Source: a virus. Taken from it: 34,188 nucleotides of DNA. The position numbers and the translations under genes were made by a program. The DNA is taken from positions 1-34,188 of the IMG/VR virus record IMGVR_UViG_3300037189_007193. One strand, given 5' to 3'. Positions 2,702 through 8,336 of the stretch are shown piece after piece (position 1 is the stretch's first letter; each line of letters starts with the position of its first letter). The notes beneath the pieces were generated by a model. It did no database searches and had not been told where the DNA came from. It saw only the letters and a program-made list of their open reading frames with translations.

Positions 2702-3108
2702 TGGAAGTAACTATTACACAAACGCTTAGTGGTGACGAGGCTGTGAATTACCTCGTATCCAAGTACGACTGGAACATCTATGTTCCTGACTACAACAAAC
2801 TCAATGTGATTGCGTATCGCCAAAAGTATGAGGATGGTTATCTCGTCTGTGACTACGATTCGAGTGTCAGCATCTCAATCGAGATGAACCTGACTAACTT
2901 CGATATCATCGCCACGCTCCTCTCAAATGACGAGAACGGCAAAGACTGGACTAACCACACTTGGATTGAGTATGACGACTGGACTGGTACATATGCCAAC
3001 GATAAAAACATCATCTTGGATGCGTACAAGACCAATGACAAATTCCGTGAATGGTTTGAGCAGAACATTGTGGACTACCCACTAGAAGAGGTGAACACCA
3101 GTGAGTAA
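2701..3108 (+). CDS. Unknown acidic protein (135 aa)
   Basis: The start is the ATG of a TAATG junction at 2701 rather than an in-frame start 11 codons earlier, which would overlap the previous gene. The product is Asp/Asn/Tyr/Trp-rich (DDWTGTYANDKN) and soluble. The segment IEYDDWTGTYAN resembles VGDDWTGIYVN of the 1057-1542 product, which could mean distant relationship or convergence. It overlaps the next gene by 8 bases. No family recognised. Confidence 0.8.
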   Translation: MEVTITQTLSGDEAVNYLVSKYDWNIYVPDYNKLNVIAYRQKYEDGYLVCDYDSSVSISIEMNLTNFDIIATLLSNDENGKDWTNHTWIEYDDWTGTYANDKNIILDAYKTNDKFREWFEQNIVDYPLEEVNTSE

Positions 3109-3505
3109 GGATATGACACTCGAAGAATGGGCTGACACTTACAAGCCTATGAAGAACGACATCGAGCCTGAGCGTGGCTGGAACGAAACTCTCCACGAAA
3201 CCTACGGCAAGGAACTCGACAAGGTACGCCTGTACGAACCTCTCAACCGAGTCTGGACTTGGGTGGATGGTGACAACGGCACTTACCTCGTTTCAGGTAT
3301 GAGTTTCGTAAATCGTATTGGTTACTTCATTACCGAAGAACCGTACGAAGACATTCTCAGGGATTTCAGTAACTACCTGTGTATCACGGTCGAGTCGTGG
3401 AACATCTGCGCTGAGTGTGACGGCGATGCTGTCATCCCCGACACAGACGACCCCTGCCCTGCGTGTGACGGCTTGGGTACGACAGACCACGAGTGGAACG
3501 ATTAG
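3101..3505 (+). CDS. Unknown protein with C-terminal DnaJ-like zinc knuckles (134 aa)
   Basis: GTG start at 3101, overlapping the preceding gene by 8 bases. Residues 103-106 (CAEC, followed by DG) and 119-122 (CPAC... then DGLG) form a pair of CxxC(D)G motifs like one zinc site of the DnaJ cysteine-rich domain. No J domain is present. The N-terminal 100 residues are acidic with no recognised motif. A protein-binding or nucleic-acid-binding zinc module is inferred. Confidence 0.8.
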   Translation: MSKDMTLEEWADTYKPMKNDIEPERGWNETLHETYGKELDKVRLYEPLNRVWTWVDGDNGTYLVSGMSFVNRIGYFITEEPYEDILRDFSNYLCITVESWNICAECDGDAVIPDTDDPCPACDGLGTTDHEWND

Positions 3506-3506
3506 G

Positions 3507-3532
3507 CGACTTACCCGACTTGTGGTAAGTTG
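3507..3532 (+). promoter_or_regulatory. Intergenic stem-loop before glycosylase gene
   Basis: CGACTTACC (3507-3515) pairs with GGTAAGTTG (3524-3532), one pair being G-U, around an 8-base loop. It immediately follows the TAG/TTA-rich end of the previous gene and lies 14 bases ahead of a strong AAAGGAGG SD. A candidate TTG start at 3530 would be buried in this stem. No T-run follows. Confidence 0.6.
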
Positions 3533-3556
3533 GAAGTAACAACAAAGGAGGACACC

Positions 3557-4048
3557 ATCCAAACATTCTTGCCTTACGCTGACCTCGAATTCGAGCGCAC
3601 AGCACAAGCGTTAGACAACCAACGCCTCAACAAGCAAGCCTTAGAGGGTTGGCAAATAATGATGACCCTGTTCGAACTCGACCCACAGGGCAACCACCGC
3701 ACACCAAAGGGCTGGGTCAATCACCCTGCTGTAAAGATGTGGCGAAATGCTGAACTGGGGCTGCTCGAATACATCAACGATATGGTCGTGGAATGGAAAC
3801 GGCGTGGTTATCGCTCGACCATCTTTGACAAGGCTCTTGCTACTTACGAGTCTGCTGAGGCTATGGGTCGCACACAGGACAACGACAAGCGACCTGCGTT
3901 TATGTACGAGGACTCGACATTCGAACAAGTAGCCGAATCACACCGCAAGGCTCTCCTTGTCAAGAACTACGGCTGGTATCACCAGTTTGGATGGGTCGAA
4001 GACACAGGAATAGAACCCACTTCATACGAGTATGTATGGATTGGCTAA
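3557..4048 (+). CDS. Pyrimidine dimer DNA glycosylase-like protein, probable ATC start (163 aa)
   Basis: The product from codon 3557 reads (M)QTFLPYADLEFERTAQALD, then QRLNKQ, NHPAVKMW and KNYGWY. These match the conserved blocks of the pyrimidine-dimer glycosylase/MSMEG_6728-like family (relatives of T4 endonuclease V), whose members begin MQTFLPY. Such enzymes excise UV-induced pyrimidine dimers. The codon aligned with the family's Met is ATC, placed 5 bases after a near-perfect SD (AAAGGAGG, 3544-3551). The only upstream alternative, TTG at 3530, would add nine residues, lies inside a stem-loop and has no SD. I therefore infer non-canonical ATC initiation. It stands between stem-loop and SD, so expression is probably independent of the previous gene. 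Confidence 0.8.
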   Translation: MQTFLPYADLEFERTAQALDNQRLNKQALEGWQIMMTLFELDPQGNHRTPKGWVNHPAVKMWRNAELGLLEYINDMVVEWKRRGYRSTIFDKALATYESAEAMGRTQDNDKRPAFMYEDSTFEQVAESHRKALLVKNYGWYHQFGWVEDTGIEPTSYEYVWIG

Positions 4049-4061
4049 CTGAAAGGAAACA

Positions 4062-4226
4062 ATGGAAGAGAATATCGACCTTTGCCCCACCTGCGGAACT
4101 ATCCGCGAGGGAGGCGTGTGTGAGAATCGGGACACACATCCTCGTAACCACGAGGAGCGAATCGAAATGAATATGAAGAACTGGATTAGCCAGTATTACG
4201 CCCAAAAGGAGAACAACAGTGAGTAG
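4062..4226 (+). CDS. Small putative zinc-binding protein (54 aa)
   Basis: ATG at 4062 follows CTGAAAGGAAACA, the same SD context as several genes here. Cys8 and Cys11 (CPTCG), Cys20 and His26/His30 could make one zinc site. The rest is a basic/acidic helix (MNMKNWISQYYAQKE). It overlaps the next gene by 8 bases through GTGAGTAG. Function unknown. Confidence 0.65.
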   Translation: MEENIDLCPTCGTIREGGVCENRDTHPRNHEERIEMNMKNWISQYYAQKENNSE

Positions 4227-7583: not shown

Positions 7584-8336
7584 CTATTTATTTTCTGGGT
7601 TATCTTCTGCCCAAAACGGTCTGAACTCTTCACCTTGAGATTCAAGAATAGGACCTTGACGACCTTCGTCATTCATGTGGCTACCAACAACCCGCGCAGC
7701 GCGGTCATCTGCTTCCACCCACGCGCCTTGAATTGGGTCAAATCTACGAATAGATTGAACGTAATGTGGCTGTGCAATAATCAGTGCGTTTTGTTCAGGA
7801 GCAACAGCAGCGGGGAACCCCATAGCACCAATAGCGTTAGCAACAGTAGCGCGGTGACCTGTACGAAGTCGAACGATGTTTCGCTCGTGTTTTGCGTTGG
7901 CTTCGTTAATGTCTGCACGAGACCTATTTTGCGCAACCATAAGCGAAAGTTTGGTGTTATGACGCTCAATCATTCCTTGTTCTGCTTTACGCAAAAACTC
8001 GGCTGAAGTAACCACACCAGGAATTAAAACCCCTTCGTTTCCTTGAGACAATCGCCATTCTGGAATAGGGTCATTTTCAAAGTTGCGGAAAGTAACCCCT
8101 ACTGCACGAGCAAAACGCTTTTCGGGTACTTTTCGTTCTGCAACAGCCTCCGCCTGTTCTCTTACAGGACTGAAAAGAGCAAGCCTGTCTTTGCCAGCGA
8201 TAGATGTAACGGGGTTGATACTACTACCAAGAGCAACGCCCGTGTAGTTTAGTAGTTCTCCCGAAGAGGGCGTGAACGCCATTCTGCGCGAACGAAGAGC
8301 CTCAGATAACTTGGAAACGGCATTAGGGTCGGTCAC
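7584..8336 (-). CDS. Unknown basic protein, possibly virion-associated (250 aa)
   Basis: GTG start in a GTGA overlap with the NTase-like gene upstream. No membrane segment or Cys. A helical centre (about 115-160) rich in Arg, Asn and Ala contains ADINEANAKHERN, which resembles HINEANKKQAK in the 12650-13699 product, hinting at a shared module. The C-terminus is acidic and ends FWAEDNPENK. Its neighbourhood of unknown, mostly small proteins may be structural. Function not known. Confidence 0.8.
   Translation of the reverse strand: MTDPNAVSKLSEALRSRRMAFTPSSGELLNYTGVALGSSINPVTSIAGKDRLALFSPVREQAEAVAERKVPEKRFARAVGVTFRNFENDPIPEWRLSQGNEGVLIPGVVTSAEFLRKAEQGMIERHNTKLSLMVAQNRSRADINEANAKHERNIVRLRTGHRATVANAIGAMGFPAAVAPEQNALIIAQPHYVQSIRRFDPIQGAWVEADDRAARVVGSHMNDEGRQGPILESQGEEFRPFWAEDNPENK

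Follow-up and report, generated by a model that had tools for sequence, protein, structure and literature searches.

A probable ATC start codon behind a strong Shine-Dalgarno sequence in a phage pyrimidine dimer glycosylase gene, and the recurrence of such starts in its family

The metagenomic virus record IMGVR_UViG_3300037189_007193 (34,188 bases, analysed over its whole length and called the window here) carries, in a forward block of small genes, a gene that codes for a pyrimidine dimer glycosylase, an enzyme repairing sunlight damage to DNA, and that very probably starts at an ATC codon, as judged from its alignment with relatives and from the sequence in front of it. The favoured explanation, given a probability of about 0.8, is that this ATC would be translated under a strong Shine-Dalgarno (SD) sequence, that the weak codon would limit the dose of the enzyme, and that the arrangement is recurrent in the family, where ATT, ATC or ATA (together ATH) can stand in place of the usual codon. 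The features concerned are the following.

3101 to 3505, plus strand: upstream gene, function unassigned, in the same frame as the glycosylase gene, with its TAG end 51 bases before the ATC.
3509 to 3530, plus strand: leader element without assigned role, a perfect inverted repeat of the form ACTTACC-N8-GGTAAGT.
3530 to 3532, plus strand: TTG, the one canonical codon in frame ahead of the ATC, rejected as a start (weak SD; paired; absent in relatives).
3544 to 3551, plus strand: SD sequence AAAGGAGG, unique in the contig and the strongest among the 62 listed starts.
3557 to 3559, plus strand: probable ATC start codon, aligned with the family initiator Met.
3557 to 4048, plus strand: coding sequence of the T4 endonuclease V-like pyrimidine dimer glycosylase (Pyr_excise), 163 residues plus stop; Pfam PF03013, fold match 2end.

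The reading frame is open from the ATC to a TAA at 4046-4048, and its product matches PF03013 with an E value of 3.4e-16 and 59.8 bits, against a curated cut-off of 23. By this sequence match the protein is a member of the Pyr_excise family, with a predicted glycosylase/AP-lyase activity. An earlier note on this DNA had given the gene as 3544-4048; the end is correct, and 3544 is the first base of the SD, the coding part beginning at 3557. Since the window contains a WhiB gene and the best cultured homologue of the protein belongs to an isolated actinobacterial phage, the host is likely to be actinobacterial.

In the alignment with about 95 relatives, which were collected by way of internal motifs, the ATC falls precisely on their initiator Met; the Gln, Thr and Phe behind it (Q2, T3 and F4) show no variation across 70 sequences. 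The AAAGGAGG octamer lies five nucleotides before the codon and occurs once in the 34-kb contig, on either strand. Its predicted SD energy of -11.6 kcal/mol is the strongest of the 62 listed gene starts (one of which, at 2698, has a wrong coordinate and is not meaningful), none of the others being ATH, and only 0.5% of shuffles of the 51 bases upstream of the ATC attain it. Both the placing of the ATC at the family's initiator codon and the near-ideal SD five bases ahead of it, as proposed in the earlier note, are thus upheld. RNA structure local to the start does not exceed that of shuffled sequences. Pairing between the SD and the ATC region (3547-3560), as GGAGG-ACA-CCAUCC, is possible in the local fold predicted; it is probably due to chance, though a further lowering of initiation could result.

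Upstream of the ATC the frame is closed by the TAG at 3503-3505, and after that stop the TTG at 3530, 27 bases before the ATC, is the only canonical codon. A start there, which would place nine extra residues before an internal Ile, is very unlikely. Nearly all of the TTG is taken up by base pairs in the predicted fold, and the SD energy before it is no better than -2.1 kcal/mol; initiation there would, besides, make no use of the strongest SD among the listed starts. The extension is not conserved either: none of the about 95 aligned homologues has an N-terminal extension matching a TTG start, one of the findings that the earlier note had named as speaking against the ATC, and in many a stop closes the frame shortly before the start codon. 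The inverted repeat that ends on the first base of the TTG could be an operator or an RNA hairpin. At up to three mismatches its pattern has six matches in the window against 1.1 expected, and a copy with two mismatches lies at 3281-3302, within the upstream gene.

The enzymology of the family bears on the same question. The amine of residue 2 of T4 endonuclease V forms a Schiff base (PMC3285167). An AlphaFold model of the 3557 protein, built on a 70-row alignment from which rows of annotated records were left out, has a pLDDT of 95, and VIA-align superposes it on T4 endonuclease V (2end) over 109 residues with an rmsd of 3.2 and a Z of 8.7, the next row having 4.2; helical folds can reach middling Z values by chance, and the fold match is supportive rather than proof. 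Residue 1 of the model falls on residue 2 of 2end, each at the end of the aligned range. A Foldseek search with the model gave no match at E <= 0.001, and a PDB sequence search with the family alignment gave none. Glu23 is the catalytic glutamate of T4 endonuclease V, and E30 of the glycosylase is invariant in the 70 sequences. The earlier argument from the N-terminus is supported by the fold, in which the chain starts at the T4 catalytic site, and needs correction in its detail: the T4 amine is that of Thr2 after removal of Met, whereas here residue 1 itself would occupy that place and, with Gln as the second residue, the Met should stay on the chain. With residue 1 at the position of the catalytic amine, any N-terminal extension would be expected to impair the enzyme, and this speaks against all starts further upstream; from the TTG, the residue aligned with the T4 catalytic one would be buried.

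The closest homologue (L002, 65% identity, on a 56-kb contig from another metagenome) has ATT at the aligned codon. A TAG stands three codons before this ATT with no ATG, GTG or TTG between them, so that a TTG-type extension is impossible there, and the leader alignment has ACACC-ATY in common with the window. The window's gene at 4219 has a relative close to L002 on that contig, and on this ground the two phages are related. Among the relatives fetched by internal motifs, that is independently of their start, the aligned codon is ATG in 93, GTG in one and ATT in one. The comparison of homologues that had been suggested earlier thus gives mostly ATG, yet the closest relative has ATT without a canonical alternative, and many others have ATT, ATC or ATA. 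All of the cultured-phage homologues examined start with ATG, and none with ATH. The internal-motif search of genome contigs gave no match, and in open-access papers (subscription journals lying outside the scope) no report on ATH starts in the Pyr_excise family was found.

The wider occurrence of these codons was assessed with scans whose ATH counts are lower bounds from sampling and not a rate of ATH use in the family. A start-anchored scan for ATH-QTF-x-PYA, made with no SD criterion, returned 17 stretches, 12 of them genuine family contigs with ATT, ATC or ATA. The same scan with NTG returned at least 120 stretches, and among the matches listed 119 belong to the family (99 ATG, 20 GTG and no TTG). 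An SD-anchored scan added further lineages among the matches listed, and both scans together yield at least 30 distinct ATH proteins in the family, cellular ones included. Of the first 16 ATH loci checked, 10 lack any NTG in the interval from the in-frame stop to the ATH. Four WhiB-like matches of the SD scan (L376, L394, L401 and L413) were rejected as ATH starts, as the codon lies within a larger ORF that has an ATG further upstream; in these viral contigs a helix-turn-helix and a WhiB-like domain are apparently fused in one ORF.

That the window holds a sequencing error for a true ATG, or a dead gene, is extremely unlikely. The window is a single metagenomic contig, but ATH is found at the same codon in independent contigs from many metagenomes, the frame is intact, all the family-invariant residues are kept and the gene is under purifying selection. 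Errors or decay should also give AAG, ACG and AGG, equally one base from ATG, as commonly as ATH, and a control scan for these codons found one family member against the 12 ATH contigs. That member, L295, has ACG behind a good SD (AAGGAG) on the minus strand, at 7813 in reverse-complement coordinates; its close relatives L158 and L251 have ATG and GTG.

If the upstream gene, which is in the same frame and ends in TAG, were read through into the glycosylase gene, the Ile would be an internal residue of a fusion. Besides the window, L002, L137, L139 and L146 have the upstream gene in frame; it is in another frame in L132, L141 and L142, and the fusion was rejected on these reading frames. There is also an SD between stop and ATH, and the catalytic N-terminus would be buried in a fusion, which is scarcely credible.

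On a tree built without the start residue, 18 start-codon changes are needed, of which at least seven are forced by well-supported branches (nine and four, respectively, on a preceding tree that had a smaller set of ATH rows), which suggests that ATH starts arose repeatedly in this phage enzyme family. In fetched viral loci totalling 1.95 Mb, a set selected in part for the family gene and thus not giving a rate, SD-placed ATH codons with no NTG alternative belong to five genes of the family and to four others that are doubtful, a tally about equal to the chance expectation. Near-cognate codons also stand at the start position of some cellular homologues. Among 68 from Nocardioidaceae, sampled regardless of first codon, 41 have GTG, 23 ATG, three ATC and one GTC. 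The three ATC cases and the GTC case are similar sequences, and the ATC cases come from metagenome-assembled genomes with less certain starts (L272 and L289 have an upstream NTG). The GTC of L307 is the codon of Streptomyces sigR, and a GTG lies nine bases upstream of it.

It may be that the ATC is the real start and serves no function, the ATG having been lost by drift while a strong SD merely kept expression adequate. This is a real possibility, clearly short of even odds. Most relatives fare well with ATG or GTG, and in general a switch of start codon tends to go along with a stronger SD (PMC5622118). On the side of the favoured explanation, the SD is stronger in the ATH genes of the start-anchored scan plus the window (median -7.8, n=10) than in ATG/GTG genes (-5.2, n=176), with a p of 9e-5 that is optimistic because the rows are not phylogenetically independent. 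Against drift stand the repeated independent occurrence of ATH on the tree and its persistence over dS of about 1 and more. Pairs of ATH genes have dN/dS of about 0.06-0.2 at dS 0.1-2.6, by which the genes are, on these sequence comparisons, under purifying selection with the ATH codon kept. In one clade of five the codons are ATC, ATT, ATT, ATA and ATT, changing among T, C and A with no return to ATG. In annotated bacterial genomes, moreover, AUG-to-AUU switches number 1 in 61,358 (PMC5622118), a baseline that is underestimated because annotation pipelines rarely call such starts. As for individual leaders, L393 and L424 (ATC) have theirs in common with L415 (ATT), and L137 and L221, at 79% identity, both have the leader CTAACAGGAG, with ATT as start codon in the former and ATG in the latter.

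Translation from the ATC under its strong SD would proceed as follows. The initiator fMet-tRNA would read the ATC with a third-position mismatch, and the near-perfect SD would keep initiation at the correct place. The product would begin Met-Gln-Thr-Phe, with the amino group of residue 1 at the position of the catalytic amine of T4 endonuclease V. By analogy, the weak codon would give a low enzyme dose and sensitivity to initiation factor IF3. The reason for a low dose is guesswork: a surplus of glycosylase/lyase might nick DNA, the phage's own included. Low, IF3-sensitive expression is the best mechanism proposed for the ATC, at about even odds. The recurrence of ATH in distant phages points to a throttling of the enzyme by phages by means of its start codon; most family members, including all the cultured-phage homologues examined, use ATG, so weak starts are not required. 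The broadest version, put slightly below even odds, is that convergent ATH codons with strong SDs constitute a family-wide, IF3-sensitive dose control, during infection, of a potentially harmful DNA-nicking enzyme, and that gene callers restricted to ATG, GTG and TTG miscall all of their N-termini. In L002 such a caller would place the start at a GTG inside the gene, 17 codons from its beginning, and the catalytic N-terminus would be lost.

Well-characterised bacterial ATH starts are a handful, nearly all in single genes. Where they recur in one family, nature has supplied replicates, and the ATG sister genes can serve as controls; what favours a weak start, and whether IF3 is of importance in infection, can be asked with such a set. 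The gene for IF3 itself, infC, has an ATH start as the window gene does (ATT in E. coli, ATC in Streptomyces), the near-cognate codon being repressed by IF3 (PMC5472188); it differs in being a cellular, autoregulated housekeeping gene, whereas the window gene is a phage DNA-repair gene with no known feedback loop. Streptomyces sigR likewise combines a non-canonical start, a GTC repressed by IF3, with a very strong RBS, AGGAGGTG; across 34 Streptomyces genomes its codon varies between GTC and GTT and is never canonical, and a change to a canonical codon leads to overproduction of the protein (PMC5472188). However, sigR encodes a sigma factor, its codon is not ATC, and its conservation is within one genus, in contrast to the recurrence in different phages seen here. 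The AUU/AUA starts of S. aureus cvfC1, ccpN and citZ and the AUU of E. coli pcnB share with the window gene an ATH codon and an extended SD, a combination that lowers yield (PMC13009471), but these are bacterial genes and single cases. T4 endonuclease V (DenV, PF03013) resembles the window protein in fold and N-terminal position, and its gene starts with ATG. DenV exposes Thr2 by Met removal (PMC3285167), while the window protein would have residue 1 at that place, followed by the invariant Gln-Thr-Phe. Non-ATG starts with strong SDs are known from infC, pcnB and sigR; no instance of their repeated use within one phage enzyme family was found in the open-access papers searched.
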